A DNA stretch of 30,749 bases from a virus: the IMG/VR virus record IMGVR_UViG_3300025483_001113, positions 1 through 30,749 of that record; one strand, 5' to 3'. Numbering within the stretch: position 1 is the first letter of the stretch; every line of letters begins with the position of its first letter. This document shows positions 4,135 to 30,062 of this stretch, in pieces. The translations under genes and the position numbers were made by a program. Under the pieces are notes generated by a model, which made no database searches, was not told where the DNA came from, and was given only the letters and a program-made list of their open reading frames with translations.

Positions 4135-4147
4135 CTTTAAGCAGTTA

Positions 4148-4155
4148 CCTTCCTT
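4148..4155 (-). promoter_or_regulatory. Shine-Dalgarno of gp8
   Basis: On the coding strand this reads AAGGAAGG, 13 nt before the ATG at 4134. It is the strongest ribosome-binding site in the window and supports that start. The spacing is somewhat long. It abuts the ATAAATA motif, so if transcription starts 6 nt after that motif much of the site would be missing from that transcript and present only in read-through mRNA. Confidence 0.6.
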
Positions 4156-4156
4156 T

Positions 4157-4164
4157 TATTTATG
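4157..4164 (-). promoter_or_regulatory. candidate T4-type late promoter upstream of gp8
   Basis: Coding-strand CATAAATA in the 34-bp gap between the 615-aa gene and gp8. The T4 late promoter is TATAAATA at about -13 to -6, read by gp55/gp33 with the gp45 clamp. The octamer is identical to those at 7517-7524 and 30126-30133. A T4-like spacing would place the transcript start near 4151. Confidence 0.6.
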
Positions 4165-4168
4165 GGAC

Positions 4169-6016: not shown

Positions 6017-6018
6017 TA
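6014..6018 (-). promoter_or_regulatory. TAATG stop/start overlap
   Basis: The stop codon of the cupredoxin fibre gene (TAA, 6018-6016) overlaps by one base the ATG (6016-6014) of the 615-aa gene. No clear Shine-Dalgarno or late-promoter motif precedes this start, so termination-reinitiation is the likely way it is translated. Confidence 0.7.
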
Positions 6019-6330
6019 GACGACTACGATGTTACCAACCATGTTGCTGTGAATATTGCACTGATACACATAGGTTGTACCAGCAGCAAGACTCATTGGA
6101 ACTGTCCAATACTGGACACCATTGATAGATCCAGATGTTCCACTGATCTGAGAACCACCACTAGATACTCTGAGTTCTAATGGATGACTAGAACCAGTTG
6201 TGTTGTTGAATCTATATGTAAATCCACGATACACATAAATGGTGGCGTCGGTGCCATTAGAGATACCAGGACCATTCAGTGTATAGTTATTACTGTCAGC
6301 AGCAGTAAAGTCATAACTCAATCCAGGCGA
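6016..6330 (-). other. cupredoxin-like domain, type-1 copper ligands retained
   Basis: C-terminal 100 or so residues of the 492-aa protein. The ligand set is His437, Cys479, His482 and Met485 in a beta-rich segment, with 41 residues between the first His and the Cys, and the C-x2-H-x2-M loop sits on the last strand as in plastocyanin-family folds. A virion fibre protein with such a C-terminus differs from the stand-alone plastocyanin (petE) some cyanophages carry. The domain boundary is estimated. Confidence 0.7.
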
Positions 6331-7494: not shown

Positions 7495-7516
7495 GATCGT
7501 TCTTTTTTTACAATTC

Positions 7517-7524
7517 TATTTATG
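7517..7524 (-). promoter_or_regulatory. candidate T4-type late promoter upstream of cupredoxin fibre gene
   Basis: Coding-strand CATAAATA at the extreme 3' end of the YHYH gene, overlapping its stop codon (7520-7522). With T4 spacing the transcript would start near 7511, giving a 5' leader of about 17 nt rich in A. No strong Shine-Dalgarno is present in that leader. Confidence 0.6.
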
Positions 7525-9130: not shown

Positions 9131-9143
9131 TGTGCTTTTTATC

Positions 9144-9150
9144 TATTTAT
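9144..9150 (-). promoter_or_regulatory. candidate T4-type late promoter upstream of YHYH gene
   Basis: Coding-strand ATAAATA (preceded by A) that overlaps the stop codon of the giant gene. Only 13 nt separate it from the ATG at 9130, so with T4 spacing (start near 9138) the leader would be about 8 nt. Confidence 0.55.
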
Positions 9151-12100
9151 TGAAAAATCTGAGTCGGGTTAAAGTTGCTAACGACAGTAGCACCAGTCTG
9201 TACTGTGAGGATCACAGAGTTTGAGTAGATTGGTGTAGCGCCAGCAGCGGTTGATGCAACACGGAACTCATCACCATCATCTGCCTGTTCAGCAGCGTTT
9301 GATGTATATGTAGCACCAGTAGAACCAGTGATGTTTGCCCAAGTAGTTTCACCATACTGCTTACGCTGCCACTGATAGTTCAGAGCAGTTGTTCCAATTT
9401 GATTATCAGAACTGTTGATGAACTGAGCGCCAATTGTGAAAGATGCAGTCTGACCTTGGTTCACGGTTACGTTTACAGGTTGGTTGATAATCTGAATATA
9501 ACCAGGTGTGATGACAATTGGGTTGCCTTGCCCATCAGTACCCTCACCCGCGTAGGTATCAAAACCTTGGTTGACGGAAGGACCCTCTGGGGCAACAAAG
9601 TCATCTTCAACTACGGTTTGAACTTCAACAATCGGTTGTTGATAACCAATACCCCTAGTCTTGACATCAATTCTCAATAGACCCATTAGGGCACGAACAC
9701 GACCATCAAAACCAGTGGATGAGATGATATCAACGTTCGGGCGCGAGGTATAACCATCTCCTGGTGAATTAATCAGTGCCTTAGTGATCTCACCAGTTTT
9801 GATACTGGCAAGAGCAGCAGCACCACGACCCTTAACCGTACCTGTGTACTCAAAGGTGATCAATGAGTTGGAAGACTCAATCAGAGCAACTTCACGTTCA
9901 TCTGCTTCACCCTCGATTTGCAGAATATCACCTGCTTCGATCGGTGGAACAACAGTTGCTGCAATAACGTCAGCGTCAGAACCGATATAAGAGAAGGCAA
10001 CGAATGTAGATCCAGAGCGAGGAATCTCAGCAAAGATGATTCTAGAACCAACCAACTGATAACCAATACCTGCTTCTTGAATAACACCATTGAGTGAGAC
10101 GATGATGTTATTCTCAGGAAGAATAGTATTGGAAGATACACCCTCAGTCAGCGTTAGTGAGTAGAAACCACCCTGATATTTCAGGTTGAATGAAGAGCGT
10201 AAGGAGTCAAACTCAAACGAAATATCATCCAGTTGTCTCAGTTTACCCACGTAGTAACCAATGAACTCAGATCCAATAGTTGGCGGTTCAGTAAACGTGA
10301 TTTGATCCGAGAAAGCAGTGTAAGCGAAGTTAGCGCCAGGAGGTTGTAGAACACCATTAACAAAGGCGAGGAGGTGTCCTGCGGGATCTGGGAAGTATGA
10401 CTCACCATTATTGACAGTAAGGTTGAATGTATCAGCAGTGCCGTCAAATCCACGGAAGAATCTATCGCAACGACCCAAGAGATCTTTCGCTTGTGTCACA
10501 CCAGCAGACCAACCATAATCAGATTTGATAGTCAAGTTACTTGGGAAATCACCATTGACATCTTCTAACCACAGGCGACCAGTTTCACCACTAATTGTTT
10601 TACCAGAAACCTTACCATAAGAGGTGTAGTTGGTCACTGTTACATTTGTGATATCAGCGGAGATGATTGGGAAGTTGTTAAGGTTTTCAAATTTACCCAG
10701 TCCACTCGTCAAAAGTTCCTGAGGATCTGTGGTTGTAGTTCCATCAGCAGCAGCGCCATATGGTGTCAAGTTGGCGATCCAGATCTTATGCTGGACACCT
10801 TCCTCATAGACGTAATCTGTAACGATAGCAGTCCAACCTGGGATCTTAGGAACACTTCCTGAGAGAAGATAAACGATATCACCTCTCTTGAAATCTCCAT
10901 CAAAACCTTGATCTCTTAGGACACTATTAACATCACACTCGATAGTCTTAACCGCGTGTACGAACTGATTAAGTTCAATGTCTTGGAATCCTTCTTTTGT
11001 GATCTTACCAATGTCAAGGATCTTGTCAGTGATAGAACCGTAGATGATATCACCATCAGTGAAGTCATCTTGTAAAGTCTCAATATCAATTGTGATACGA
11101 CCACCAGAGTTGCCAGTTAGAATACCAGCAGAATTTTCAAAGGATGCAATAGTTGCCTCAGCGCCATTACTCTTATTGAAGATAATCTCGCCATTTGCGA
11201 ACGCGCCGCGATCAGTATTGATCAACATGCGAGTAGTTCCATCACTTTCTAGTTCTGCTGTCAGACCACTATCCACACCTTCAATAACTTGTCCATCACT
11301 CATGGTACCAGTAATACCTTCGATATATACCCAACCCTCATCGCTATTATCGCCAGTGAGGACTGAGGTTTGTAGGACTGTACCAAAGTTAGCGGCAGCA
11401 CCCTGAACCTGAACACGTTCGCCAACCGTGAATCTGCCCGTAGCAGCACTTATCGGGTATCTGTAATAGAGTTTGACGATCTCTGCTTCGTTGTTTCTAG
11501 TTCTGACAATCTCAGAAGTAGCATTAGATGAAGTACCAGCAAACACGTCTGCGAGACTAAAACCACCACTAATGGGATTGTCAATATCTCGTGTTCCGAA
11601 TGTAGTTGTTTGACGGACAATACCAGATCTTACAGGACTTTGCAGTTGTTGAGTTCCAGTGGTTCTGGTGTCTAGTTCAAAACGACCAGAACGAGCATCA
11701 TGTCTAATTTGATTAGTGATTTCAAATTGAGTTGGAGTTGCATTAAGAACATAGACATATTCTTGTGTTGCAAACGCAGATTCAACGTCAGATGATGCAA
11801 CAGCATATTGGAGAATATCACCGCGTGAGTAGAAGTTAGGACGTTGAATAATAATTCTATTCTCTCTTCTCTCAAATCCAACCTCAACAGTAGGTGTGTT
11901 GATGACCAGATCAGGATCAGTGTTCCAATCATTACCTTCATCATAAAGATTCTGCTGATTAGTGCCATGAATATTGTTAGTCCACTGAACACTATTTTGT
12001 GCAGGAGGTGTACCTCTACTGATGGCAAAGTATGCAGCATTTAGAGAACTATCAATTCTGAATTGAGTAGACTCTTTCTCATATTCAAATCTGTTATCAA

Positions 12101-15100
12101 TAGCACCAGTGTTGATATGAGTTTCATCTTGATAGATGTCATAACCATACCACTCACCACCAACCAAGACATCGTTATAGTCATCCAGAATGCGCTTGGC
12201 ATACTCACTGATACGAGTTACATACCAGAGAAGATGTTGCTTGGTGACATCAGGGTATGCAATGAAATTACCTTCACCATCAAACCAGGTATTGACTAGT
12301 CTCAGGATGCCGATGTTACCACCAGTATTCAGGTCATATAGCAGACCATCAATCAACGCATCACCAAACGATTGTTCGGCCAAGGTTGTTGGATATGAAG
12401 ATTGAACCTCAGAGAATGCTTTCAGCGAAACTGCGTGCTTGTTGAACAGAATTCGTCTAGCGGCAGCCTTATCTGAATGACTACCACCACCAAGACTCTC
12501 AGACATCAGTTCAAAGAGAGTATCTGCTGCTGATGTGACGTTATAACAGGTGTAATACTGATACTCGGTGTTTGAGTTATATCCAGTCGTGCGAGTCAGA
12601 CCTGCCAGGTAACTTGGGTTACCTGCATCCGCAGTAGTAATCGTGTCGATAAGAATATCAAACAGAGTTTCAATGTTTGTTACCTGATCGTTACAAGTTT
12701 GATTCCAGTCACCACCATCATAAATAACAGTTACATCGCGCTTGACAAATTCAGGTGCATACTTGACAGGCCAAATGTTAGGCATTGTCTTAGTAATCGT
12801 ACCGTCTCCGATACTTGCAGGTGTAGTGATTGTGTCAGTAACAATCGTCATCATAGTGTTGATTGCCGAAGCAACGTCAGCACACTTAGGTGAGTCAGTA
12901 TCTACTGTGATTGCATAACCACCATCACTGTAAGGAGCATAATCTAGATCTGTATATGTCTTCTGAGTGAATCCATGTCCAGCAGTGATTGTGATGGTTT
13001 CATCTCTCATGCACTGAATTGCAAGATCTCTTGCTTTGTTCAGAATCCAGATAGACTCAGTAGAAACACCTACGATATGTTGTAGGTTGCTACCAGAGAC
13101 ATACAGTTCAGCAGATTTGAAGACCTTATTGTTACCACCATGCTTCAAGTTCCACACCAGAGAGGAGAGAACGTCAGTCACGTCATGAACACAGTCGATG
13201 CTACCATTAGTCACCACAGCGTTCTGTTGGGCAGATACGAAAGTGTGTGCATACTGATATTCAGCAGCAGCAGCACCAACGTTCACGGTGAAGGTGTCGG
13301 TTGTAGCAGCACTAATGGCTAAGGATGTATTAAACGCGGGGTCGCCTTGTCTTGGGTAAGAATGCTCAGTGGCATTAGCATTTGAAGTACATGTAAATAC
13401 AATGCTATTAGGTTTGATTGTGACTCTATTGGCAGTAGTCAAGTTATGACCAACAACTGTCAGAGTCATATCGCCAGTTGCCTGGTTGTATGTTGCAGCG
13501 GTCGGAGTCAACTTGACACCACCAGTACCAACACCATTGATACTCAATGAAGGATACTGAGCGAGACCTTGTGCAACTGCTTCCTCAGCAATCAAACGGA
13601 TGTTTCTGTCAATGACGTTAGCAGCATCGATGAAACGGTCATCAGCGCCGTTTCTCTCATAGGTGCTTGCATCTACACCATCCAAAGAAGAACCACCAGT
13701 GATTGGTTCACCAGTTACGGGGTCAACACCACCATCTTCTTGGTAGATATACAGGTTCTCACGTCCGAAACCATTACGCATCGTCATGATGCAGATCTCA
13801 GCAGCAATCTTCATAACGTCAAGAGAAGCGTCAACTTCACCTTCGATATGCTTCAAACTATCATCTTCTTCGTTCAGATATAGCGCAGCGGCATCCCATA
13901 CCTTAGAGTTACCACCGAATCTGAGGTCATGAACAACAGCATCCAGAACATCCATCACATCATCAATACAATTCTGAGCACCACCAGGAACAGCAAGATC
14001 CAAATACTTGGACATATCGTTCATAGTGTAAACCGCTTCGGTTGCGATTACATGCTTATTCGCTTCGATCAGATTAGCAGCATCAAGATTCTTATTAACA
14101 AGGCTGATATCAGTATTTCCATCATATCCCTTAGAATCGATAATTATAGTGGCATCTCTGAATGCTTGAATTAGAGTGTATTGTGCAACATAATAATCAT
14201 CTTGATATTGAGCTGGAACACTAAGTCCAGAAGCAGTAGTACCACTAGTTAAGAGTGTATTGTTAACTGCATGATGCACCAACTTATTGACGAAAGCGAA
14301 AGCATCCAACATTGGACCAAGTTCGTTCTCGATATGAATAATTTGATCATTTGCATCGATATATTGATCAATAACGTATTGGGTGGCAGAATTACCACCA
14401 GTAATCAAATCAGTAATAACGGCAGGAAGGATATGTTGCTTGATATCGCGCTCACAATAAGAGTCGCCATATCCAGGCATGATCAGGTAATCGTATGTAG
14501 TACCATTGATTTCTTTAATGTAGGTTGCCTGTAAGTACCCAACGGTCTCTTCTGCAATATAATCACGGTTCTTCCAGATCAAGTCACCAGCATCACGGAA
14601 TCTATCGCCCGTAGGTCCGATGATATCTGCGATAACATTAGAGAGACTAGTGATCTCATCTGTAATTACACTAGATGCAGGAGAAGTAAAGTTGTTAGGA
14701 ATGCGAAGACGCTCAGTATACTTAGTGCCGTTATAGGTTTCTAGATCAGCGTCAGTAGTGGTAATGACATAATTAACAACGTTAGCAACTTCGGTCCAAG
14801 TGTAGATAGATTGCAGAAGTTCATTGCCAACATAGTTTAAACCACCTTCTTTCGTGAGATATCCTCTACCAGCAATTACACTGTTGTAGTTGCCACCATA
14901 CTTAATGTCTTCTACAATTGCTTTTAGAATATATTCTTTGGTGTCGCGCAAACACTTGTTAGTGCCTTGCTGAACTCCAATACCATCAACTGAATCACCA
15001 GGGATCACGAAGTCGGAGTATCTCTCCTTCATCAATCCAATAGCAACCTCAGAAATCCAGTTATAGTTAAGTTCAATTATTTCAGCACACTTACGGTACT

Positions 15101-18100
15101 CATCGCGACCCAGATCGATCTCCTCAACAATAATTTGCTTCTGATCGTAATCAATACTCTTGGCAGTTGTTGCTGAGTTTGTCTGACCTGTAAAGATACC
15201 AAATCTCTCCTGATCGCTAATGATCAGAGGAAGTTCCATACTCATACCAAACGTAATATTGTTGGTAGAGGTAGGATACGTTGATCCAGGTGTGAATGTT
15301 GCAGTATAGTCAGAAACACCTTTCTTGAAGATGATATTATCAAACCAACCAACGAAACCATTAGTACCATTGAAGTCAGCAGCAAGTTTGAAGGCACGTT
15401 CCAGATAGTTGGTATTATCGGTAAAGTCGCCACCAACTTGTGTACCATTGACCCACAGTTTAGTGATGTTAGTGGTTCTACTGACTGCGATATGGTGCCA
15501 AGAATTAGTTCCAAGGTTATGAGCGCCACTGATCTGATCATTACCATTCAGGTACCAATTGATGGTAGATCCATTCAAATACAGAACAGGAGATCCAACT
15601 TCTGTTGCACCACTAGTGCGTGTATCCCAAAGATACTGCAAACCACTCAGAGTTGTAGGTCTAATCCACATCTCCATAGTGAAGTCGCCAGTTTCAAACT
15701 TAGCAACATTACTAAGTTCATGTGATAGATAACCACTAGCATCAATTCTTAACGACTTAGTGCCAGATTTCTTTTGAAGACCAGTCAGAACTGCATTAGT
15801 AGCGGTTAACTTGGTATTGGAAATATATTCTCTATCTTGGAATGCTCCCGTAACCCCAGTAGTGTACAACCACTTCAAACCAGAGTTTGAACCCTTAACA
15901 GGTAAAGAAGCACCAGAGGTTGCACCAATTACCGTGTCGCCAGGGATAAACAATCCATTGCCACCAGGATCCTTGTAGGAGATCTTATATACACGAATAT
16001 TTTCATTGATCTGGTAAGAACCATCACTAATAACTGCAAGAGCATTAACATTAGTCAATGTACCAGCAGTAATAGCAGTAGATGCCAATTCAACCAAAGT
16101 ATGGATGCCTGCCTGAACATCAGCACAGTGTTGGATGCTTTCGTTTCTACCAGAGTAGTAGTTAGGATCGTAGTATGCAGCAGCAGTACCACCACCTTGG
16201 AATACAGCGTTATCGATAGCACTGATGAAGGTGTGAGCATATTGCTGACCACCAGGTGATGCACCAACATTAACTTCAATGGTTGTAGCAGTTACAGCAT
16301 TGATAGTCAGTAGTGTATCAAATGCAGGATCACCAGTACGTGGATAGTCGTGGAAAGATGCATTACCATCAGAACTACATGTGAAACGTAAGGAGTAAGG
16401 TCTGATCTTAATGCTGTCGCTAGTTGTCAGTGAGTGGGTACCGATCGTCAATGTCATGACACCAGTGCTAGCAACATATGCAGCAGCAGTCACATCAAAC
16501 TCAACCAAACTGGTTCCCGAAGAACCAAGATATGGACCAACATATGTGGTCGGATCTTTGAGCATATAACCAGTTTCTGGTGTTCTGGTATTGACCTGAA
16601 CATACAACAGGTTATTGATTGCCTTACGGCACATCTCACCTGCTTTTCTGAAAGCAGTAACTGACTCAGCAGTCTCACCAACCAGACCATTACTGATGGG
16701 AGTACCAGCATTATCAAAGTAAGACCTGATAAATTTAACTGTCTGATAGTTGCCATCGCCATCAATATCGGCAGCGAGAGCGTCAACTAATAGACCAATA
16801 TCACGACGACACTTAGTTTCGTTGTTGCTATAAGTATTTGCCTCAGAAAGATCGATTAGATCTGAAAGAGACCCTGCAAGCAGAACCTCAGATACGTTAG
16901 TAAAGAGAGTTGTCAGAGCAGATTGGACATCGGAGCAGTTATTTGCTCCAAAGTTATCAGCATTACTACCAGCAGTACCATAAGGGTTGCCTGGTGAAGG
17001 ATCGGCAGTAATTCCAGTTCCACCAGAACCACCAGTGCTTCTTTCATCATACTTAACATAAGTTACACCATCAACAACTTCACTTCCCGTGAGCATGTTT
17101 GAAAGTGCATTCTTCATGTATCCAAGTGCTTGCTCGAATGCATATTCAGTCGCCGCTTCTTCACCATCAATATACAGGAAGGTCAAACCATCTGTACTGA
17201 AATAAGATTGTAGAAGTTTACGAGTATAGATTGTACCACCTTGGAACATATCCATTGAAAGTGCTTCAATGAACTTACCAATGTCTCTCTTACACTTAGT
17301 TGAAGAAGGAACCACAAGTGAAGGATACTCAGTAACCATGTCAGCATAAGACTTGGCGATGATATATTCTTTGTTCTTAGTGATCAGACGATATGAGTCT
17401 GCATATCTACTAAACTGGTCGGTGATGTTATCACCAGGATAATAGAATCCAGGATGCTCAACAGCGATTTCAGCATTAGCAAAATCAATGATTTCCTGTC
17501 TATTAAATCCGATCATACGACCAGCATCTTTCCACCTATTGAGTGAATCAGTTACTGGGTTGCCATATGTTACTTGGATAGAACGAAGTTTATCATTAAC
17601 CGCTAATGTACCACCCGTGAGACCTTCATATTCGATCTCAGTAGAACGAACTTCTTCAAAGTCAAGGAAGTCAGCATTAATACGATCAGCACTGTCAAGG
17701 ATTTCGGCAGGTGTGATTGTGGTCTTAGAAATGTCATCCAGAATGACGTTCTGGTTAGTCAGAGAGATCAGACGCTCAAAGAGCATACCGAAGAAGGTTG
17801 ATCCTCTGTTAATCGTCAAAGTATCGACTACACCACCAATTCTTACTGCACCCAAAAGGGTCTCGGTTAAAGAATCTAAGATTGTGTTGCCATTAGCATC
17901 TAATGTATATCTCTGAACGATCTCATTAACTGCTAACTGATCACCATCATCGGGATCAATAGTGTTAGGATCTAAGTTGAAGTTCTGTTCAGTCTTTTTC
18001 AGGTAGTAGAGAATAGGAGGTGATGCTTGATAGTCAATTCTGACCACTTCACCTCTTGCACCAGAAGTTTGTCCAACGATTAGATCACCTTCAACGAAGG

Positions 18101-24100: not shown

Positions 24101-27100
24101 CGCGACGGGATGCACCAGAGACACCAGCGATCTCTTTCTGCCATCTAACAATACCTTCTGGGTTATTTGCATTATCAAAACCAGATTCGTACTTAGCAAC
24201 CAAAATATCAGGATTACGGCTTTCAGTTGACTGCGACTCTGTTTCTCCAATCAAATAGATCAGATCATTTTCTTCACTAGTTTCGTCAAGATATAATTTC
24301 TTCCAACGGGCAACTTTAATAGTTGCACTAGGCAGAAGAGTTCTATCCCAAACGACATTTCCAAGATCATTAAACTTAGCAAGGAATGCTGAGGAATTAC
24401 CACCTTCTTCTGTTATTTCTCCACAGACATATAGATCACGGTTTGACGATACAATAGAATCGAAGATCTCAAACTTAGAATTAGCGTTCTCAGTAAAGAG
24501 AGTTGACCAATAATAAGTTTTCTTCGCTCTTTGTGGATGTGAGACTCTAATAATAGGTGGATTCTCAGTATCATAGTTGAAACCAGAGTTGATGATATCA
24601 ACAGTATCCACCTTACCAGTGGTCAAATCTAAGTTGATATTAAGTTCAACATCTTGACCTTGTGGGGTAATGATCTCATATGTTGGAGGAATTGCCTGAT
24701 TATAACCAATACCAGATTGAGTAACAGAAATTGAATCAATGCCTGTAACAACAGACATGTAGAATCTCTTATTAGTATTCTCAGTAATAACCCTAGAACT
24801 AACAATAACCTCGTCTTGTGCGATCAGTTCGTGGTCTTGTGTTGTTGTGATCCTTCCATATGGGATGTCATTAATGACTTCTTTTGAATATGCTGCAATT
24901 CCTGCACCCTGCACAGATTCAACTTGTGCAGATGCACCAAAACCATCTGTTCCAGTATTATCGAAGAATAATGTATCATTAACTTGATATGACACACCAG
25001 AATTTTCAATAACAAAACCATCGATTTGAGCATTCTCAAATTTCGTTGTTGTTTCAACTTCGATATCAACTCTGGATTCTGTGGATACTCTTGGGAAGTA
25101 ATCATAGATTTGAAGTGCTGCCTCCTCGGTCATTACTTCATCTGTGGCGATTTCAGCAGGTGAAATAATGCCATCTCCATCAATATCTTGGGTTTCAAAG
25201 AGGATCAGATCCCCTTCTCTTTCAGTTACTAGTTGATCCGACTGTTGGTTAGGTTGACGCTCAATATCAATATCAACTTCTTCATATGGATCTCTGAAAC
25301 GAGATACACCCTGAGGAATATTCTCCTGAGTTGCTTGCTGACTCAGGTTCCAGGTATCTACAATAGAGTTGAATTGTGGACCGATGATATATGGGAATAC
25401 AGGAAGACCCAACTCAGATGCATCAATAGTAATGAAATAGCAATAGATTCCATCTGGATACTCAGGTGTCTTACAGAAACGACCGTTGTATTGGTCAAGA
25501 TCACCCTCTTGGAATCGATACTCATAGTCATCGACAAACTGCCCAGCAGGGTATGTGGTCAATGATGGACCATCAATACGAGCGGGGATTGGGTTTGTAT
25601 CTATATCATATACTACATTAGTTTTTAGTGAATATGAAGAACGCAGTCTTCTAACACCACCATTTTGATCCGTAGGATCAATATATCCATAAGGACCATA
25701 AATTGCGTTACCATCAAACGCCCATCCAAGGATAGGAGAGTGTGTAATAGCAGCACCAGTTTCAGTGCCTTCTTCTTTGAAAGTATTAGTTTCTGGATCA
25801 AGGATTACATTATCACCAACCACATAACGTAGTTCTTTCGGGTCGGAAACATGAGCATACTCGCCACCATACTGATTATTAAAACCAGTGAATACATAAC
25901 CACGAGCAACATCATACTTGCTGCTGAGGTCATATTCTAGGTTCTTGTTCCATTCAAATACGTTTGCAGTGAATGTTGCAAGTTGTCCAACTGCCTCCAT
26001 ACGAACAGTGGTATTTCCTTGGGTATAACCAACACCTCTGTTATCAATAGTAACCGAAATTACCTTACCTTTATCCTCACCCAGAGTTCCGATAACAGCA
26101 GTTCCCTTTGCACCGAAACCATCTCCATTGATATAAACAGTAGGAGCAGTGGTATACCCACTACCAGAGTTAATAATAGCGATCGATACCAGACGACCAT
26201 TAATAACAATCGGTTGTGCCAGAGCACCTTCACCAGAGTTCAATTTGATATCAGGAGTCGAAGTATATCCAGATCCTCTTGCTGTAATATTAACCGCAGA
26301 GATAGCACCACGAACCTGTGCAATTGCTGTTGCACCAGATCCACCACCACCCGTAATAGAAATTGTAGGTTGTGAAGTATATCCAGTTCCAGCATTTCCA
26401 ACCAGAACACGAGTTACACGACCATTAGTAACAACTGCTTGTGCTGTTGCACCAGATCCACCACCACCAACGATAGAGATTAGAGGTTGATCAGTATATC
26501 CACTACCTTGATTAATTACATCAACACTGTTTAGTGAACCATTAACAACAACGGAAGCAGCAGCACCAGAACCACCACCACCTGTAATTTCAAGTGCAGG
26601 AATAGAACCAGCATCGTACTGTTCACCAGAGTTGGTGATATCGATACTAGTGATAGGTCCGAAGGTTACAAACTCTTGATCCTTATATCCCCATGCAGAT
26701 ACACCATTAATCCAAGCACCGATTGGTGTGTTTGGTTGTACAGTAGTTCTTGTAGATACAGTATTGACAACTCTTGGGAATCTCAACAGTTTACGTTGGT
26801 TTCCAGGGATTAGAGCAGATCCAGTGAATGGTCCAATCTTATAGTTAGGAAGACCCGATGCTGCAACATACACATGCTCATTATTGAAGAAGGAGTTCTG
26901 AATGTTCGATGTGAACAAAGAAATAACTTCATTAATAGTATTAACAGTAGACTTACCTCGGTTAAGGTCAACCGATAGAAGGATATTGCCTTGTGGTTCG
27001 ATAGATGTAGGAACAGGAATCAAATACGAGAATGTAAACTCATCAAGACGAGCAGTTACTTCAAATGTGCCATTATATACAGCAGGGTTTGCACCATAGA

Positions 27101-30062
27101 TTGTAACAGAATCTTCAACCAACAAACCATGTGGGTTTTCGCAGGTTACTGTTGCAGTTCTATTAAGACCCCCAGGAAGGATTCCAGAAACTTTAATAAG
27201 TTTCTTAACATTGTATAACCAAGACTGTAAACGCTCATCTTGATCAGTAGAACCCAGTGCAGCAACGTTTAGTTTATCACCAGGCAAATAGTAAGAACCA
27301 CTATCTTCCAGGACGGTAGTTCCTGCTTCGGCAATACCCAAAATACGAAGTTTTACTTCATTTGTAGTTCCTTGGTTAACATATACAAAAATATCAGAAT
27401 GAATGGTAGTACCAGGATCCCAATCCTCTACAACACCATTCTTAGAACGAGTACATTCGATAAACTGGTTCAGAGACTTCTCTTTATACTGTACAATCTC
27501 CATATCATCAATAATGATCGTACCGTTCTTCTCGGGCCAACCAATCGTTGAGTCAACGGTGATAATACCTTCTGTTGTGTTCAGAGGTTCAACCAAAGAC
27601 GTTTTGTATGGAATCTTGAACTCGCCCGTTAGTGTTTCTTCGGAAATAGCAAGTTCGTAAATAATATCAGTACCTTCGATAATCGAAATCACGTTTTCGA
27701 TCAAAACTGACGCATCTTTGATATTCTGATCCACAGCATCAGCATTTTGGACCAACTGAGCGTCTCTGAGGTCAGCAGGATCACCAGAAATCAGTTCTGC
27801 TCGCAAAATAGTGTCTACAACCCAAGATGCAGCAGAAGGGGTGATCATCTCATCCCTAGGGTAATACACATCAATCTCTTCACCAAAGAGAATCTTAAAT
27901 AGGTATTGCGTTGCCTTTTTGGTACCCTTAGAAACGTAGAAGTCTTTAATCCTCTTAATTACCAACACAGGATTAACCTGAGAGTAGTCAAGATTGATTG
28001 TGGGCATGTATTGACGACGGAATTTGTCGAATACTTGCTTAATGATCATACTGTCCAGATTATGGACAATAGATTCTTGACTATGAGTGCTTTGACTTAG
28101 TTGATCTTCTTTGGCAAAGATCTGGTTTGCATAATCATCAAATGCGGCAATATCAGATACACCACGAGCACAACCAACCAGAGAAGATGCTTCGTAGTTA
28201 CGTCCACTTGACAAAATAGTGAAACCAGTAACTTCACCAAAACCAACATCACAAGATGCTTGTGCAGCAGCAGGAGATGCGATGTATACTTGTGGTGGTT
28301 GAGTGTCGGAATATCCAGAACCGAAACTATTGATGTTGATATCAGTAATTTCACCATTAAAGATGGTCGCTGCTGCCATAGCACCTGTACCACCAATTGA
28401 TTCCCCAAGAGGACCCTTACGTGGGTCTACAATATACACAGAAGGTGCATCAAGATATCCAGCACCACCAGTGAGCAAATTGATGTTAGTTACATTGCCA
28501 TTCGCAACGGTCACGTCAAGCACCTGTGCGCCCACAGGTTGGATGATACGCGCCCTTGGGGGTGTAGTATACCCTCTACCCCTATTAGTGATTGTTACAC
28601 TGACAACCTGCCCATCGGGAGATACATTACAGGTAGCAGCAGCATTGATACCATCCACAGGTGCAGCGTCAATGTAAATTGACGGAGGATTAGTATAACC
28701 AATACCACCAGCGGTAACTGTGATAGATCCACCAACCAAACGACCCTCAGAATCAATCTCTGGATCACTGATTGCAGCACCATCAGGATTCAGGAAGGTA
28801 ATTGCAGGGATGAAATCATATCCAGAACCTGAGTTAGTAATCTCAATGGCAGATACTGTTCCTGTTTCGTCATCAACCGTGATTTCTGCTGTTGCTTGCG
28901 ATCCGTTTATCAGATCAGAAGGAGGGGTAATTAAGACGACTGGTGGGTTGTATGAAGTGTAACCCTGACCGCCTCTAATTAACTGAGAATCCTTGATACC
29001 GTTGACAAGAGTCTTACCCGCTGCTGCTTCACCAACACCAGTCGATGAATAGATTGAAAGTTTTGGTGCAAAGTTAAGTTCGTATCCTTTACCACCATCT
29101 TTAACAATGATCTTGTCAATTTCACCAGTGTTACCAACCCTGGTAACTGCTCGTGCTCCCTGACCCACTGTGGGCGAAACATATTCAATAGAGCGGATAT
29201 GAAATGTATCCTGATTTGAAATATTTACGAAAAACTTGATTCTTGTATTGTTATCCGTTAAAACATAGTTATCATACGGACGTTGGAGCACACCATTCCT
29301 ATTAATGATGAGACCAATCTCAGCAATAGGAGAATATGGCAAGGAATCATAAGACATGACCATAGAGTCTTGTCCAGATATATCCTCAACCGCAGGTAAT
29401 GTCAATTCTTTGATGACAGCATCTGCAAAACCAACATAATATAGGATCTGAGTCAACTCAACTTGATCATTACCCGTTCTAGCGCGAGGAGGGGTGAGGA
29501 ATGTGATCTCACTACCAGAGATGGTGTAGTCAATCTGAGGAATTAACAGATCACCATAAATTGTGACTGCAAGGTGTTCAGCAGAAACTGCGGACACAGG
29601 AGTGCCCAAAAATTTCAGAGAGAATGTAGTTCTAGTGCCGTCAAATAATTCCCAAGGGGATTCAAGTGCTTGTCTCTTCTTATTAAACTCTTCTAATGAG
29701 ATACCAGGTGTTAAAATGGCATCAGGACCTCTAACGGTTTCATCATAATAGATGATCTCATTATCGATCATAATAGAACCCTTAGATTCTAAAAATCCAT
29801 CGATTTGTTCAACTTCAATAACTTCATCGTAAACTCCTACATCTTTAATAAGAGATGTAAATGAAGTTAAAGTTTCTCTATCGTATTCGTCTATATCAAG
29901 ATACTTAATAATATTATTAAGTACGTTATATGGGCGACCAGTTTTCTCCTGTGACTTATAGTATTCAATCAGGAAATTTACTAGTTGCTCATCTTCATTT
30001 CGGATGAACTCTGGGAGTTGATTAGCAACTCTGTCAGAAATGTTGATTGTTTTTGAGAACAT
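9147..30062 (-). CDS. giant modular baseplate/adhesion protein (6,971 aa) at the gene 7 position
   Basis: One uninterrupted frame, roughly 0.75 MDa; T4 gp7 is 1,032 aa. The ATG (30062) follows AAGAGATAA, and the N-terminus (MFSKTINISDRVANQLPEFI) suits a folded start. Residues 1-80 contain LVNFLIEYYKSQE and LDIDEYDRE; residues about 700-740 contain IKDFYVSKGTKKATQYLFK and VYYPRDE. Together they resemble P2 gpI-type tail proteins, the class containing the T4 gp7 core, so this part probably joins the gp6-based wedge. Other modules, by residue: GSGY repeats (about 294-627, 1131-1350, 3109-3341, 6744-6817), YHYH-like (1395-1565), beta-propeller-like (1857-2243), LamG-like (2262-2457, 4761-4932), CBM-like pair (2676-2804), Cys/GGN helical repeats (4170-5961) and Ig-like (6860-6960). 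No catalytic domain is evident. The gp7-equivalent role is inferred from synteny and the N-terminal motif. Confidence 0.9.
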   Translation of the reverse strand: MFSKTINISDRVANQLPEFIRNEDEQLVNFLIEYYKSQEKTGRPYNVLNNIIKYLDIDEYDRETLTSFTSLIKDVGVYDEVIEVEQIDGFLESKGSIMIDNEIIYYDETVRGPDAILTPGISLEEFNKKRQALESPWELFDGTRTTFSLKFLGTPVSAVSAEHLAVTIYGDLLIPQIDYTISGSEITFLTPPRARTGNDQVELTQILYYVGFADAVIKELTLPAVEDISGQDSMVMSYDSLPYSPIAEIGLIINRNGVLQRPYDNYVLTDNNTRIKFFVNISNQDTFHIRSIEYVSPTVGQGARAVTRVGNTGEIDKIIVKDGGKGYELNFAPKLSIYSSTGVGEAAAGKTLVNGIKDSQLIRGGQGYTSYNPPVVLITPPSDLINGSQATAEITVDDETGTVSAIEITNSGSGYDFIPAITFLNPDGAAISDPEIDSEGRLVGGSITVTAGGIGYTNPPSIYIDAAPVDGINAAATCNVSPDGQVVSVTITNRGRGYTTPPRARIIQPVGAQVLDVTVANGNVTNINLLTGGAGYLDAPSVYIVDPRKGPLGESIGGTGAMAAATIFNGEITDININSFGSGYSDTQPPQVYIASPAAAQASCDVGFGEVTGFTILSSGRNYEASSLVGCARGVSDIAAFDDYANQIFAKEDQLSQSTHSQESIVHNLDSMIIKQVFDKFRRQYMPTINLDYSQVNPVLVIKRIKDFYVSKGTKKATQYLFKILFGEEIDVYYPRDEMITPSAASWVVDTILRAELISGDPADLRDAQLVQNADAVDQNIKDASVLIENVISIIEGTDIIYELAISEETLTGEFKIPYKTSLVEPLNTTEGIITVDSTIGWPEKNGTIIIDDMEIVQYKEKSLNQFIECTRSKNGVVEDWDPGTTIHSDIFVYVNQGTTNEVKLRILGIAEAGTTVLEDSGSYYLPGDKLNVAALGSTDQDERLQSWLYNVKKLIKVSGILPGGLNRTATVTCENPHGLLVEDSVTIYGANPAVYNGTFEVTARLDEFTFSYLIPVPTSIEPQGNILLSVDLNRGKSTVNTINEVISLFTSNIQNSFFNNEHVYVAASGLPNYKIGPFTGSALIPGNQRKLLRFPRVVNTVSTRTTVQPNTPIGAWINGVSAWGYKDQEFVTFGPITSIDITNSGEQYDAGSIPALEITGGGGSGAAASVVVNGSLNSVDVINQGSGYTDQPLISIVGGGGSGATAQAVVTNGRVTRVLVGNAGTGYTSQPTISITGGGGSGATAIAQVRGAISAVNITARGSGYTSTPDIKLNSGEGALAQPIVINGRLVSIAIINSGSGYTTAPTVYINGDGFGAKGTAVIGTLGEDKGKVISVTIDNRGVGYTQGNTTVRMEAVGQLATFTANVFEWNKNLEYDLSSKYDVARGYVFTGFNNQYGGEYAHVSDPKELRYVVGDNVILDPETNTFKEEGTETGAAITHSPILGWAFDGNAIYGPYGYIDPTDQNGGVRRLRSSYSLKTNVVYDIDTNPIPARIDGPSLTTYPAGQFVDDYEYRFQEGDLDQYNGRFCKTPEYPDGIYCYFITIDASELGLPVFPYIIGPQFNSIVDTWNLSQQATQENIPQGVSRFRDPYEEVDIDIERQPNQQSDQLVTEREGDLILFETQDIDGDGIISPAEIATDEVMTEEAALQIYDYFPRVSTESRVDIEVETTTKFENAQIDGFVIENSGVSYQVNDTLFFDNTGTDGFGASAQVESVQGAGIAAYSKEVINDIPYGRITTTQDHELIAQDEVIVSSRVITENTNKRFYMSVVTGIDSISVTQSGIGYNQAIPPTYEIITPQGQDVELNINLDLTTGKVDTVDIINSGFNYDTENPPIIRVSHPQRAKKTYYWSTLFTENANSKFEIFDSIVSSNRDLYVCGEITEEGGNSSAFLAKFNDLGNVVWDRTLLPSATIKVARWKKLYLDETSEENDLIYLIGETESQSTESRNPDILVAKYESGFDNANNPEGIVRWQKEIAGVSGASRRDYAGDIYLDDEQRVYICGWTDTNSPDPDDIWVIQLNSFGDLIEKRKFASDSEGEQMNQLYYIGNNKMVFAGIDKDNNDVIFGEMEYDGANIELTYVKRLAVTGGDVQNPQFVIDEYNDVFFVCDMWNGTKNYGVAFFKIALAQLKLVASAPTWEFAKIMAPTVAFESVKHAGITLDVFGNVNVVTEIGYSDNNLTANISSFKYDGTLLNQSDVWKTAAEIGFKVHTHAVDNSGDIILTTNKQNADQVIIHRFENGAALTEDATKQDIPTITLLNAGNAAHDTTDYKFGSGSLDFTGLNRLLWQDLNITTDWTVGMWVQMDSSWNSSDARINLITALADTGGDIQFVVQGDSGDANYGKIALELNPQGGTQVTVWSVGSTYWAALSDNAWHHIAFVKEEPSLGSYVYTCYFDGVAVATTTTVENIILDDLYVGADRTTPTTANGFVGNFDDIVVDPTAVYTTASFTPPTEQFRITSKNSGFELIKFDRLHSKRGTYTPTSTARSGENLRIEDIDSGTAGINVNTLSNPVITTWLVGSSGLQILDYADVTSTLAPGTYNFVSDRFTYETKTSTIPTPLGRKLILDPIVLPKYYIRDAGYQKIDAVKEFTFNQNIKLNKGSILQQVNSIGVVQAFGTIVEVPVGSIDNPGLGNKYKVGKIFGTFNTDDLYQNDLGEENTIDEISFEVTRPQDAWVTGKVYAVNNQVWSDNKIYYATNNGTSGVTPPTHTIGAVTDGAVTWQFISTAPNIEVNLLDYPWPTPTDATPWAETRSYNVNDTVYFGRNKYTCTVAGTTGTVAPTHTTGTATDNSVTWSYTSTYDPLYDYARFRPFAQADYKVTILNTFSGSDFIIGDVVSLGNSINAGPKADTNNKIAEVSGLDSVKTIRVTVNLNKDIIRTNEANTDLIYCSALSRHNFNVGNILFVEGFTTDQFNGSFFVQEVFSSRDFTYRMRAIADAEPQFEQGAISRVKIASKHPTLLLVRNHSYIFDMSDASNFGYFLSFAQDNQFKLEYSFNVIEREGTPGLSSATETPLVKFTIGGEVTNITYYFDPSRTGTTSPVGPNSFIDVIKTPFDGRFQITEVISDTEFRFPLLNEPEFTNANIGDDEFDNPNTIYSTTSTKAIGPINAIRLISPGGFYKKLPIISDIASDRKIEKLRITAAGTEYAPGVYTQIPIIGDGEGGLCNITVENDPETGSGAISDVALTDPGKGYTTGSIDIDGIPGILGPTLAGSGGAIEVVIPAEGSGAAVFLTGTQIGKIKTLKNNEFGYGYSHDYTLRPEIAFPINLQLFNTSILSQIKITNPGAGYTSAPAVLISGGGGINAEAEAIVKNNRLSEILIKNPGSGYSSQPTVTLKSEFTYVVNLDLNYLQFNFPHGITTGAEVQFRADAIGSQIGILPKPSSVGLTSLSSTQTYYAIAGDANGLESDQLRFGLTPVDAESGNFITFLTQGDGRQVLLTEVFGGQAEAIVSTSRFLQGEQVFQGETFETATAFGIVSTNSGWQIEPKILKVTNPSGNFVVGGKVQGTISRASGVIDNLNIAKGVLNIDAITKTAGKFTDDVGKPSEIVQKIQDSFFYQNFSYVIKSQIPINRWKNQILENNHPVGFSMFGQLELTGGKDISGRKVAADFTKQVNINEYTNVNEITSFGAAEPIYSTFNNSEVLFRNKRLTNSEEILTSIVKKIDNISAQFDGVTKAFSIRVEGEQVIANQNQLLVTLNGVIQAPGDAYNVVGGSIVFSEAPKPDSKIVYRNIGFDIMPITRLNLNTIAGIFPSIGDTVNGFTSQATGKVVATGATSIDIVDISGGLFELNERVDVGRTGFSALIGSLDKSFTKLFLQNIGGTFGTILIGDIVTGQTTGARATVTSIDLTEQSIQVTDMSNGYFDRGEDIVFFTAGYGANILNVDSVNYKTIFEFGESVTSLNNDTAIIEESNLDLDGNVSDRIVLSKTSGTAEFETGSYNLLLNDIFYSAASNIAARITAISPYRDPITSVNIERPSTVTAEWASFVEGDLIVGQTSGARGEVVRIDYQASPPILYYLKKTEQNFNLDPNTIDPDDGDQLAVNEIVQRYTLDANGNTILDSLTETLLGAVRIGGVVDTLTINRGSTFFGMLFERLISLTNQNVILDDISKTTITPAEILDSADRINADFLDFEEVRSTEIEYEGLTGGTLAVNDKLRSIQVTYGNPVTDSLNRWKDAGRMIGFNRQEIIDFANAEIAVEHPGFYYPGDNITDQFSRYADSYRLITKNKEYIIAKSYADMVTEYPSLVVPSSTKCKRDIGKFIEALSMDMFQGGTIYTRKLLQSYFSTDGLTFLYIDGEEAATEYAFEQALGYMKNALSNMLTGSEVVDGVTYVKYDERSTGGSGGTGITADPSPGNPYGTAGSNADNFGANNCSDVQSALTTLFTNVSEVLLAGSLSDLIDLSEANTYSNNETKCRRDIGLLVDALAADIDGDGNYQTVKFIRSYFDNAGTPISNGLVGETAESVTAFRKAGEMCRKAINNLLYVQVNTRTPETGYMLKDPTTYVGPYLGSSGTSLVEFDVTAAAYVASTGVMTLTIGTHSLTTSDSIKIRPYSLRFTCSSDGNASFHDYPRTGDPAFDTLLTINAVTATTIEVNVGASPGGQQYAHTFISAIDNAVFQGGGTAAAYYDPNYYSGRNESIQHCADVQAGIHTLVELASTAITAGTLTNVNALAVISDGSYQINENIRVYKISYKDPGGNGLFIPGDTVIGATSGASLPVKGSNSGLKWLYTTGVTGAFQDREYISNTKLTATNAVLTGLQKKSGTKSLRIDASGYLSHELSNVAKFETGDFTMEMWIRPTTLSGLQYLWDTRTSGATEVGSPVLYLNGSTINWYLNGNDQISGAHNLGTNSWHHIAVSRTTNITKLWVNGTQVGGDFTDNTNYLERAFKLAADFNGTNGFVGWFDNIIFKKGVSDYTATFTPGSTYPTSTNNITFGMSMELPLIISDQERFGIFTGQTNSATTAKSIDYDQKQIIVEEIDLGRDEYRKCAEIIELNYNWISEVAIGLMKERYSDFVIPGDSVDGIGVQQGTNKCLRDTKEYILKAIVEDIKYGGNYNSVIAGRGYLTKEGGLNYVGNELLQSIYTWTEVANVVNYVITTTDADLETYNGTKYTERLRIPNNFTSPASSVITDEITSLSNVIADIIGPTGDRFRDAGDLIWKNRDYIAEETVGYLQATYIKEINGTTYDYLIMPGYGDSYCERDIKQHILPAVITDLITGGNSATQYVIDQYIDANDQIIHIENELGPMLDAFAFVNKLVHHAVNNTLLTSGTTASGLSVPAQYQDDYYVAQYTLIQAFRDATIIIDSKGYDGNTDISLVNKNLDAANLIEANKHVIATEAVYTMNDMSKYLDLAVPGGAQNCIDDVMDVLDAVVHDLRFGGNSKVWDAAALYLNEEDDSLKHIEGEVDASLDVMKIAAEICIMTMRNGFGRENLYIYQEDGGVDPVTGEPITGGSSLDGVDASTYERNGADDRFIDAANVIDRNIRLIAEEAVAQGLAQYPSLSINGVGTGGVKLTPTAATYNQATGDMTLTVVGHNLTTANRVTIKPNSIVFTCTSNANATEHSYPRQGDPAFNTSLAISAATTDTFTVNVGAAAAEYQYAHTFVSAQQNAVVTNGSIDCVHDVTDVLSSLVWNLKHGGNNKVFKSAELYVSGSNLQHIVGVSTESIWILNKARDLAIQCMRDETITITAGHGFTQKTYTDLDYAPYSDGGYAITVDTDSPKCADVASAINTMMTIVTDTITTPASIGDGTITKTMPNIWPVKYAPEFVKRDVTVIYDGGDWNQTCNDQVTNIETLFDILIDTITTADAGNPSYLAGLTRTTGYNSNTEYQYYTCYNVTSAADTLFELMSESLGGGSHSDKAAARRILFNKHAVSLKAFSEVQSSYPTTLAEQSFGDALIDGLLYDLNTGGNIGILRLVNTWFDGEGNFIAYPDVTKQHLLWYVTRISEYAKRILDDYNDVLVGGEWYGYDIYQDETHINTGAIDNRFEYEKESTQFRIDSSLNAAYFAISRGTPPAQNSVQWTNNIHGTNQQNLYDEGNDWNTDPDLVINTPTVEVGFERRENRIIIQRPNFYSRGDILQYAVASSDVESAFATQEYVYVLNATPTQFEITNQIRHDARSGRFELDTRTTGTQQLQSPVRSGIVRQTTTFGTRDIDNPISGGFSLADVFAGTSSNATSEIVRTRNNEAEIVKLYYRYPISAATGRFTVGERVQVQGAAANFGTVLQTSVLTGDNSDEGWVYIEGITGTMSDGQVIEGVDSGLTAELESDGTTRMLINTDRGAFANGEIIFNKSNGAEATIASFENSAGILTGNSGGRITIDIETLQDDFTDGDIIYGSITDKILDIGKITKEGFQDIELNQFVHAVKTIECDVNSVLRDQGFDGDFKRGDIVYLLSGSVPKIPGWTAIVTDYVYEEGVQHKIWIANLTPYGAAADGTTTTDPQELLTSGLGKFENLNNFPIISADITNVTVTNYTSYGKVSGKTISGETGRLWLEDVNGDFPSNLTIKSDYGWSAGVTQAKDLLGRCDRFFRGFDGTADTFNLTVNNGESYFPDPAGHLLAFVNGVLQPPGANFAYTAFSDQITFTEPPTIGSEFIGYYVGKLRQLDDISFEFDSLRSSFNLKYQGGFYSLTLTEGVSSNTILPENNIIVSLNGVIQEAGIGYQLVGSRIIFAEIPRSGSTFVAFSYIGSDADVIAATVVPPIEAGDILQIEGEADEREVALIESSNSLITFEYTGTVKGRGAAALASIKTGEITKALINSPGDGYTSRPNVDIISSTGFDGRVRALMGLLRIDVKTRGIGYQQPIVEVQTVVEDDFVAPEGPSVNQGFDTYAGEGTDGQGNPIVITPGYIQIINQPVNVTVNQGQTASFTIGAQFINSSDNQIGTTALNYQWQRKQYGETTWANITGSTGATYTSNAAEQADDGDEFRVASTAAGATPIYSNSVILTVQTGATVVSNFNPTQIFQ
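9180..9500 (-). other. C-terminal Ig-like domain of the giant protein
   Basis: Residues about 6860-6960: IQIINQPVNVTVNQGQ, then LNYQWQRK, TGATYTSN, DEFRV and NSVILTVQTG. The same order of landmarks occurs in the C-terminal domain of the 536-aa neighbour, so the two are probably homologous. Phage Ig-like domains are commonly on virion surfaces. Confidence 0.7.
9610..9835 (-). repeat. GSGY-repeat cluster 4 in the giant protein
   Basis: Short cluster with SPGDGYTSRPNVDI and TRGIGYQQPIVEV, about two repeat units, shortly before the Ig-like C-terminus. Confidence 0.65.
9985..10445 (-). repeat. tandem NGVxQ beta-modules
   Basis: Two adjacent copies of a module of about 70 residues with the pattern FxL, then NGVLQPPG or NGVIQEAG, then an ITF/IIF strand and a PxxGS turn. 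Further copies lie near 29650-29430, 29320-29170 and 19065-18855 in the same protein. Confidence 0.65.
13215..13511 (-). repeat. duplicated beta-domain, copy 2, nested in helical repeat 6
   Basis: About 99 residues starting LTPTAATYNQATGDMTLTV and containing GHNLTT, FTCTSNANATEHSYPRQGD and YQYAHTFVSAQQNAV. It matches copy 1 at 16205-16497 landmark for landmark and sits between the first helix and the Cys motif of helical unit 6. Confidence 0.8.
15265..15780 (-). other. LamG/concanavalin-like domain 2 of the giant protein
   Basis: Residues about 4761-4932, with FTMEMWIRP, SWHHIAVSR, KLWVNGTQVG and GFVGWFDNIIFKKG. This order (EMW strand, WHHIA, LWVNG, FDNI) is the usual signature of LamG-like sandwich domains, which often bind glycans. 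No ligand can be read from the sequence. Confidence 0.75.
16205..16497 (-). repeat. duplicated beta-domain, copy 1
   Basis: About 98 residues starting VTAAAYVASTGVMTLTI and containing THSLTT, FTCSSDGNASFHDYPRTGD and QQYAHTFISAIDNAV. Paralogous to 13215-13511. The DNA of the two copies is well diverged while the protein landmarks are kept, so this is not a recent duplication. Confidence 0.8.
18030..18830 (-). repeat. FxxGExVxGxTSGA beta-repeat block
   Basis: Five or so short units with the pattern [LF]xxGDxV then GxTSGARxxV (for example SIGDTVNGFTSQATGKVV, IGDIVTGQTTGARATV, VEGDLIVGQTSGARGEVV). Similar units recur near 11560-10990 and 15930-15885 in the same gene and in the C-terminal third of the 615-aa protein. 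Confidence 0.65.
20040..20735 (-). repeat. GSGY-repeat cluster 3 in the giant protein
   Basis: Residues about 3109-3341 with turns SPGGFYKKLP, DPGKGYTTG, NPGAGYTSAP and NPGSGYSSQP, plus the GTEYAPGVY segment that resembles the block inserted in gp8. Confidence 0.75.
21650..22035 (-). other. tandem carbohydrate-binding-like (CBM5/12-type) pair
   Basis: Residues about 2676-2804. Two copies of W-x4-Y-x4-VW/VYF, then YYAT or YTCT, then a G...PTHT-x-G-x2-TD-x-[AS]-VTW end (WVTGKVYAVNNQVW ... PPTHTIGAVTDGAVTW; WAETRSYNVNDTVYF ... APTHTTGTATDNSVTW). The spaced aromatic residues resemble small chitin/cellulose-binding modules often seen on phage tail proteins. Glycan binding is inferred. Confidence 0.6.
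22690..23275 (-). other. LamG/concanavalin-like domain 1 of the giant protein
   Basis: Residues about 2262-2457, with FGSGSLDFTG, WTVGMWVQMD, AWHHIAFVKE, YFDGVAVATT and GFVGNFDDIVVDP. Same landmark order as domain 2 at 15265-15780 with clear divergence, so an older pair. Confidence 0.78.
23335..24490 (-). other. beta-propeller-like region of the giant protein
   Basis: Residues about 1857-2243. Repeated blade-like units of about 50-60 residues: RDLYVCGEITEEGGN with AFLAKFNDLGNVVWDRTL; NDLIYLIGETE with DILVAKYE and VRWQKEI; QRVYICGWTDT with DIWVIQLNSFGDLIEKR; NKMVFAGIDKDNND; DVFFVCDMWNG; NVNVVTEIGYSDNN. The pattern resembles SBBP-type beta-propeller repeats. The number of blades is not certain by eye. 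Confidence 0.65.
25370..25880 (-). other. YHYH-like domain in the giant protein lacking the YHYH motif
   Basis: Residues about 1395-1565. It shares with the 536-aa protein GWAFDGNAIYGPYGY (cf. GYAFDGFPIYGPYLY), a LRSSYSLK spacer, YEYRFQEGDLDQYNGRFC and DGIYCYFIT. The YHHH stretch that precedes these landmarks in the smaller protein has no counterpart here; only YAHVSDP is present. Confidence 0.75.
26010..26670 (-). repeat. GSGY-repeat cluster 2 in the giant protein
   Basis: Residues about 1131-1350. The cleanest GSGY array: successive units of about 36-40 residues with NQGSGYTDQP, NAGTGYTSQP, ARGSGYTSTP and NSGSGYTTAP turns, and three or more ITGGGGSGA segments. At DNA level the GGGGSGA segments give repeated ccaccacc strings. 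Confidence 0.85.
27850..27965 (-). other. P2 gpI / T4 gp7-like core motif in the giant protein
   Basis: Residues about 700-738 with IKDFYVSKGTKKATQYLFK and EEIDVYYPRDE. A Y..KGT..A...LF...G-type helix is what I remember from tail protein I relatives, the class to which the T4 gp7 core belongs. The companion N-terminal part (YY helix plus IDEYD) is at residues 28-60, near 29980-29880. Confidence 0.5.
28180..29180 (-). repeat. GSGY-repeat cluster 1 in the giant protein
   Basis: Residues about 294-627. Eight or so units with turns such as DGGKGYELN, RGGQGYTSY, NSGSGYDFIP, AGGIGYTNPP, NRGRGYTTPP, TGGAGYLDAP, SFGSGYSDTQ and SSGRNYEAS. It lies between the two halves of the presumed gpI/gp7-like core. 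Confidence 0.8.

Follow-up and report, generated by a model that had tools for sequence, protein, structure and literature searches.

Gp7 of phage T4 (PDB 5HX2, 5IV5) is a protein of 1,032 amino acids encoded at the locus after gp6, with extra domains N-terminal to a core whose pieces A, B and C follow one another in order. The small gp7 proteins of ACP17, Moby and pf16 share this core and a locus adjoining gp6, have only 482–523 aa and lack large insertions. A third group consists of the phrog_701 giants of cyanophages (S-WAM1, S-SZBM1_208, P-RSM6 and the gp7 of S-RIM50), which share gene, architecture and locus with the protein analyzed here and differ from it only in length and in details of the repeat region. 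Such giants have been annotated as gp7, 'virion structural protein' or 'baseplate wedge initiator' in several cyanophages. Given these annotations and the presence of the S-SZBM1 orthologue in virions, the giant as such is already known. In extracellular contractile injection systems, the gp7-like wedge part Alg12/Afp12 has been described as a re-engineering hotspot for fibre binding (PMC8894135). In contrast to the giant, Alg12/Afp12 is much smaller and is a gp6-gp7 fusion, and homology between the two has not been established.

The window, a 30,749-nt stretch of viral DNA corresponding to a 30.7-kb IMG/VR fragment, contains one giant gene, which runs from ATG to stop through 6,971 codons with zero internal stops. 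The computed mass of the protein is 757 kDa, and the gene starts 7 nt downstream of the frame encoding the gp6-family C-terminus. The gene order as transcribed is the gp6 C-terminus, the giant, a YHYH protein, a gp9/10-N-like connector, a phrog_708-type protein, gp8 and a VrlC/DUF4815 protein (Table 1). The identical order with an unbroken giant was found in S-WAM1, P-RSM6, S-SZBM1 and P-TIM40, with a close variant in S-RIM50, and complete relatives display the locus order 25-6-[7]-...-8. The location directly after gp6 satisfies the positional criterion for membership in gp7. The initial annotation had placed a 6,971-codon gene, nearly seven times as long as T4 gp7, at the gene 7 position of a T4-like operon, with a probable gp6 C-terminus upstream and a clear gp8 following three genes later; the frame, the length ratio and both neighbours were confirmed.

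Table 1. Features of the window, ordered by position; residue numbers refer to the giant protein.
Feature	Position	Strand	Basis
VrlC/DUF4815 protein, partial, not gp7	1..2595	(-)	PF16075; position after gp8; no significant gp7-core match
gp8	2599..4134	(-)	PF09215 E=5e-17; phrog_438 E=4e-216
phrog_22827/phrog_708 protein, 615 aa, without gp7 core	4169..6016	(-)	profile matches
gp9/gp10-N-like connector	6016..7494	(-)	PF07880, phrog_677
YHYH-domain virion protein, YHHH motif kept	7520..9130	(-)	PF14240 E 2e-37; motif search
Giant gp7 (assigned by sequence), 6,971 aa	9147..30062	(-)	phrog_701 match; gp7-core HMM and profile matches
C-terminal extension, residues 3600-6971	9150..19265	(-)	
Ig-like C-terminal domain	9198..9497	(-)	phrog_613 E 5e-8, a head-protein family match
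Repeat 7, degenerate, no cysteine at site	12123..12521	(-)	motif/HMM; no phycobiliprotein signal by hhalign
Phycobiliprotein-like repeat 6, CVHD; first helices upstream of ~100-aa insert	12948..13388	(-)	motif/HMM
Phycobiliprotein-like repeat 5, CIDD	13761..14162	(-)	motif/HMM; Foldseek
Phycobiliprotein-like repeat 4, CERD	14196..14651	(-)	motif/HMM; Foldseek
Phycobiliprotein-like repeat 3, CLRD	14709..15149	(-)	motif/HMM
Concanavalin-like (LamG_3) domain 2	15336..15713	(-)	PF13385 E 2e-14
Phycobiliprotein-like repeat 2, CRRD	16557..16982	(-)	motif/HMM
Phycobiliprotein-like repeat 1, CKRD	17040..17483	(-)	motif/HMM
gp7 core piece C, residues 3553-3599, RWK-HPVGF	19266..19406	(-)	second model, E 2.5e-16; hhalign; PDB profile search
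Insertion 2, residues 751-3552, near-constant length across genera	19407..27812	(-)	
Concanavalin-like (LamG_3) domain 1, residues ~2291-2440	22743..23192	(-)	PF13385 E 9e-12
Weak beta-propeller repeat (SBBP)	24036..24116	(-)	E 0.001, just under cut-off
YHYH domain C-terminal half, residues 1397-1548, without YHYH motif	25419..25874	(-)	PF14240 E 2e-29, profile 69-184 only
gp7 core piece B, residues 638-750, FY-SKGT-LFKILFGE	27813..28151	(-)	i-E 2e-19; hhalign
Insertion 1, residues 60-637, beta-rich, GxGY/GGGGSGA repeats	28152..29885	(-)	strands in low-confidence model
gp7 core piece A, residues 7-59	29886..30044	(-)	HMM of four minimal gp7s, i-E 6e-7
gp6 C-terminal part, open at contig end	30070..30747	(-)	phrog_219 E=6e-12; synteny

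A frame of this size might join several genes through fusion or misassembly, and long reads had been suggested as a test. Only the extreme length speaks for this, along with the S-SSM7 region, where two ~3,000-aa genes are present. Indirectly, the question is answered by five independently sequenced, complete isolate genomes that contain a single unbroken frame at the same locus (S-WAM1 6,737, P-RSM6 8,573, S-SZBM1 6,619, P-TIM40 7,351 and S-RIM50 6,405 aa). The dN/dS ratio between the giant and its S-WAM1 counterpart is 0.10–0.17 in each 1000-codon block, and 71 peptides have been assigned to the 724-kDa orthologue of S-SZBM1, although post-translational cleavage is not excluded. The gene is open over all available sequence in dozens of IMG/VR contigs, and relatives of the giant are encoded in hundreds of viral contigs and phage records. 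An artefact is barely conceivable, and we conclude that the giant frame is genuine and unbroken and that purifying selection acts on all of it.

Core pieces A and B were identified with an HMM built from four small gp7s of 482–586 aa (ACP17, Moby, pf16 and a Desulfovibrio phage protein), which matched T4 gp7 at E 2e-12 and the whole giant at E 7e-26. The second model, used for piece C, also matched T4-group gp7s at E 4e-6 to 1e-3. No significant matches to these gp7-core models were obtained in shuffled or reversed giants or in the neighbouring proteins. The order of the pieces is as in T4, with A and B together corresponding to T4 residues 662–759 and C to residues 864–889, whereas the distance from B to C is ~130 residues in T4 and ~2,850 in the giant. 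Unlike in T4 gp7, the core of the giant begins as early as residue 7, is interrupted by large insertions of ~580 and ~2,800 residues and is followed by a long C-terminal tail of 3,370 residues. None of the insertions in the giant matched the N-terminal domains of T4 gp7.

Comparisons that did not depend on the small proteins gave the same assignment for pieces B and C. Giant-family profiles from which the small gp7s had been excluded aligned to T4-group gp7 by hhalign at E 1.6e-9 (B) and 8e-7 (C), and the alignments cover short motifs only, of 37–39 residues each. In searches against PDB, T4-type gp7 was the sole match to the giant-family profile of piece B (E 1.3e-7) and of piece C (best E 0.0036); a further PDB profile search again returned T4-type gp7, with the other matches marginal at E 0.04–0.09. 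Core B as a single sequence ranked T4 gp7 first, at a non-significant E of 0.25. A scan of the whole giant against T4-group gp7 displayed signal at the core places only, with piece A non-significant, and the assignment of piece A rests on the small-gp7 HMM. The AlphaFold2 model of residues 1–960 was of too low confidence to use (pLDDT 42), and structural evidence that the split core assembles is therefore lacking.

Since the record is a fragment, the remainder of its genome could not be searched, and complete relatives were substituted. The gp7 core occurs once per record, in one gene, in 15 of 15 phage records, and the lone core of each complete relative sits within the giant; a separate gp7 elsewhere, which would have refuted the assignment, was thus not found in the relatives. 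The initial annotation had proposed residues 1–80 and 640–900 for structure prediction with gp6; as the place of the core this choice was right for pieces A and B, and piece C can now be added. With the core pieces in T4 order and T4-type gp7 as the PDB match, the sequence comparisons strongly support the giant as an expanded version of the baseplate wedge protein gp7.

This conclusion contradicts the assertion for cyano- and pelagimyophages that gp7 is absent and is replaced by VrlC, the DUF4815 protein after gp8 (PMC7029224), which would make the giant an unrelated fibre protein. The giant contains the gp7 core, which the portion of VrlC covered by the window lacks (E 0.12, no significant domain), and only one core was found per genome. 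VrlC is also encoded alongside small gp7s, for example the 482-aa protein of ACP17, so the two proteins coexist. Replacement by VrlC is accordingly most improbable. The 615-aa protein fares no better as the gp7 of this virus, and we give it hardly any credence: its counterpart in S-SZBM1 is annotated 'baseplate wedge initiator' and occurs in virions, and phrog_708 is labelled 'baseplate wedge subunit', but the protein displays no gp7-core match, and in phages with a small gp7, ACP17 among them, gp8 comes immediately after gp7 and the intervening gene is missing.

Annotation labels were also inspected. 'Baseplate wedge initiator' is also carried by core-less proteins in P-HM1, S-SSM7 and S-SZBM1. 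The gp7 of HTVC008M (5436–8486) is annotated 'head closure Hc2', and other genes of this phage carry 'baseplate wedge initiator'. The two ~3,000-aa genes of S-SSM7 (5562–24656) are both annotated gp7, and the core is present in the first only.

At the gp7 locus, protein lengths between 482 and 8,573 aa were found. The series comprises ACP17 (482), Moby (503), pf16 (523), Melnitz (896), phiM19 (1,007), HTVC008M (1,016), S-CREM2 (1,937), S-SSM7 (3,007), S-CAM9 (3,884), S-SCSM1 (4,120), P-HM1 (4,446), P-SSM2 (5,195) and S-RIM2 (6,378), followed by the five isolates listed above and the window (6,971). One IMG/VR record of 199,258 bases contains a 9,914-codon open frame with eight repeat matches, above all listed giants; its identity as gp7 is unverified. 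Piece C is located at residue ~3570–3590 in the window and in four isolates, which means that up to residue ~3,800 these relatives hardly differ in length. Indels and length variation are concentrated at residues ~3800–5700. Within the first half of the giant, the fastest-diverging block is residues 2200–2550, which holds a concanavalin-like domain.

The view of the giant as a mosaic of adhesion-type modules was only partly upheld. Two concanavalin-like (LamG) domains, a partial YHYH domain, a hint of a beta-propeller and an Ig-like end agree with it, but among the repeated modules the largest does not resemble adhesins, being helical and similar to phycobiliproteins. The YHYH domain of the giant lacks the half with the motif and the next gene keeps YHHH, which would place a proposed hydrolase site in that gene and not in the giant. 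No Peptidase_S74 was found in the window, and a search of NCBIfam gave chance matches only. Stretches resembling the GxGY/GGGSGA repeats of the giant are present in gp8 and in the 615-aa protein (window 2599–6016), with shared PHROG matches, as if baseplate proteins exchange modules.

The C-terminal half of the giant contains seven helical repeats of ~145 aa at residues 4194–5980. They escaped self-BLAST of the giant and were identified by motif and HMM; seven repeat-bearing giants of other phages display two to nine matches each. Used against PDB, the repeat profile gave a best E of 3.2e-7, and phycobiliproteins accounted for 60 of 60 among the matches listed. In profile-profile comparison by hhalign, a cyanobacterial CpcA/CpcB profile reached E 2.5e-8, with signal in the giant only at residues ~4051–5470. 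PF00502 matches 13 of 29 repeats when these are taken singly, most single repeats being under the Pfam cut-off; for repeats with their neighbours, the cut-off was exceeded in four phage genomes and, among the control genomes, in S. elongatus only. A structural model of two repeats was weak (pLDDT 61), with all of the best 50 Foldseek matches in PDB being biliproteins (prob ~1.0, best E 0.03). With one repeat as query, 323 phage records were retrieved, all of them cyanophages save one marine virus.

The repeats resemble phycobiliproteins (PF00502; phycocyanin, phycoerythrin), which harvest light in the cyanobacterial hosts of these phages, in helix pattern, N and P/G positions, the cysteine of the bilin site and the Asp that follows. 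The cysteine aligned with the bilin-binding Cys84 is kept in six of the seven window repeats, and repeats 1–4 keep the full C-x-R-D. In contrast to phycobiliproteins, the phage repeats are shorter (~105–145 aa), stand in tandem in one chain and are missing most of the loop that precedes Cys84; no cysteine occupies the site in the seventh repeat, and pigment has not been shown. We conclude that the seven repeats are homologous to phycobiliproteins, a claim carried by sequence evidence given the weak structural model, and infer that they were captured from a cyanobacterial phycobiliprotein. The joint claim, that the giant is gp7 and carries homologues of phycobiliproteins, appears very likely on these comparisons. 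Another cysteine motif, NCADVQ with its variants, recurs within the repeat region at residues 4376–5839 (window 12500–17000), and its cysteines might pair with those of C-x-R-D.

The repeats are accompanied by a T-type bilin lyase gene of the CpeT family in 13 genomes, namely S-WAM1, P-RSM6, S-SZBM1, P-TIM40, S-RIM50, S-RIM2, P-HM1, S-SCSM1, S-PM2, Syn9, S-RSM4 and two IMG/VR records, with several CpeT matches weak in single pieces, though above the Pfam cut-off. Neither was found in P-SSM2, S-CREM2, S-SSM7, S-CAM9, S-SM2, HTVC008M, Melnitz or T4. The first 15 genomes split 11 to 4 (Fisher p 7e-4); since the genomes are related and the sample is small, the association is a lead and not proof. 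Some phages have repeats located outside gp7. S-PM2 has a repeat-bearing tail-fibre gene of 3,779 aa (158000–178000 segment, 7929–19268), which cpeT precedes by a few genes. Oddly, 16 tRNA genes are also annotated within this open frame in the S-PM2 record, perhaps through a coordinate error. S-RSM4 carries cpeT according to a review (PMC2984593); it was picked for this reason and the repeats were detected afterwards, with the CpeT match ~3 kb from the repeat-bearing frame. No such association with the repeats holds for bilin reductases (PF05996), which were found in 6 of 15 genomes, including the repeat-less P-SSM2 and S-SSM7.

One reading of this association is that CpeT-type lyases attach host or phage phycobilin to cysteines of gp7 and of tail fibres, which would place pigment at the baseplate. 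We consider such chromophorylation unlikely. We think it rather probable that the repeats are purely structural spacers with no pigment bound, which is compatible with an expanded gp7 and competes with pigmented repeats only. T-type lyases act on the Cys153/155 site, whereas Cys84 is served by S/U-type lyases (PMC10452541, PMC2327270). The absent cysteine of the seventh repeat, the shortened Cys84 loop and an Arg86 (position +2) in just 17 of 29 aligned repeats all agree with spacers, and other nearby cysteines could pair with the site cysteine. Against the spacer explanation, the alignment displays Cys in 29 of 29 repeats and Asp at +3 in 28 of 29, albeit in a set selected among the better ones, and CpeT is present in every repeat-bearing genome tested and absent from the repeat-less ones.

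Virion data are available for the S-SZBM1 orthologue, the peptides of which cover 13.5% of the protein with an emPAI of 0.41, as compared to 0.23 for gp6 and 1.37 for gp8 (PMC9146016). Absence from virions, which would have spoken against the gp7 assignment, is thus ruled out for this orthologue. The emPAI values are consistent with a wedge component but do not fix the copy number; if there were six copies, by analogy with T4, they would weigh 4.5 MDa. We infer that the three core pieces would meet in the wedge in the manner of T4 gp7 and gp6, in which case each insertion would form a loop projecting from the baseplate. Insertions and tail together carry the two concanavalin-like domains and the seven repeats, of which the lectin-like modules may bind the cell surface; for the repeats, a spacer or binding function is the least that we infer, and they may be pigmented. 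S-SZBM1, S-WAM1, P-RSM6 and P-TIM40 are without long tail fibres (PMC9146016), which makes a receptor role of the baseplate more plausible. That the giant serves as a wedge-borne apparatus for host contact is an inference made without receptor-binding data, and we regard the chances as roughly even.

In the literature and annotations searched, neither the split core nor the phycobiliprotein homology was found to be described; subscription papers were mostly not covered, and an earlier description is possible. The identification of the core settles the disagreement over gp7 in cyanophages and indicates that a conserved wedge protein tolerates thousands of inserted residues between its core pieces. 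S-PM2, which has many repeats, is reportedly a phage with light-dependent adsorption. Light-dependent adsorption has been described for 'several marine cyanomyoviruses' (PMC2984593), and Jia 2010 is cited for it (PMC9229316). The benefit of bilin genes is unexplained in phages of Prochlorococcus, a host without standard phycobilisomes (PMC2984593). Phycobiliprotein homologues in a virion protein would offer a possible phage target for the bilin genes of cyanophages and would make light-dependent adsorption testable at the virion level. If the repeats were chromophorylated, the orphan bilin genes would gain a phage substrate, and the light-dependent adsorption of S-PM2-type cyanophages would gain a physical basis.
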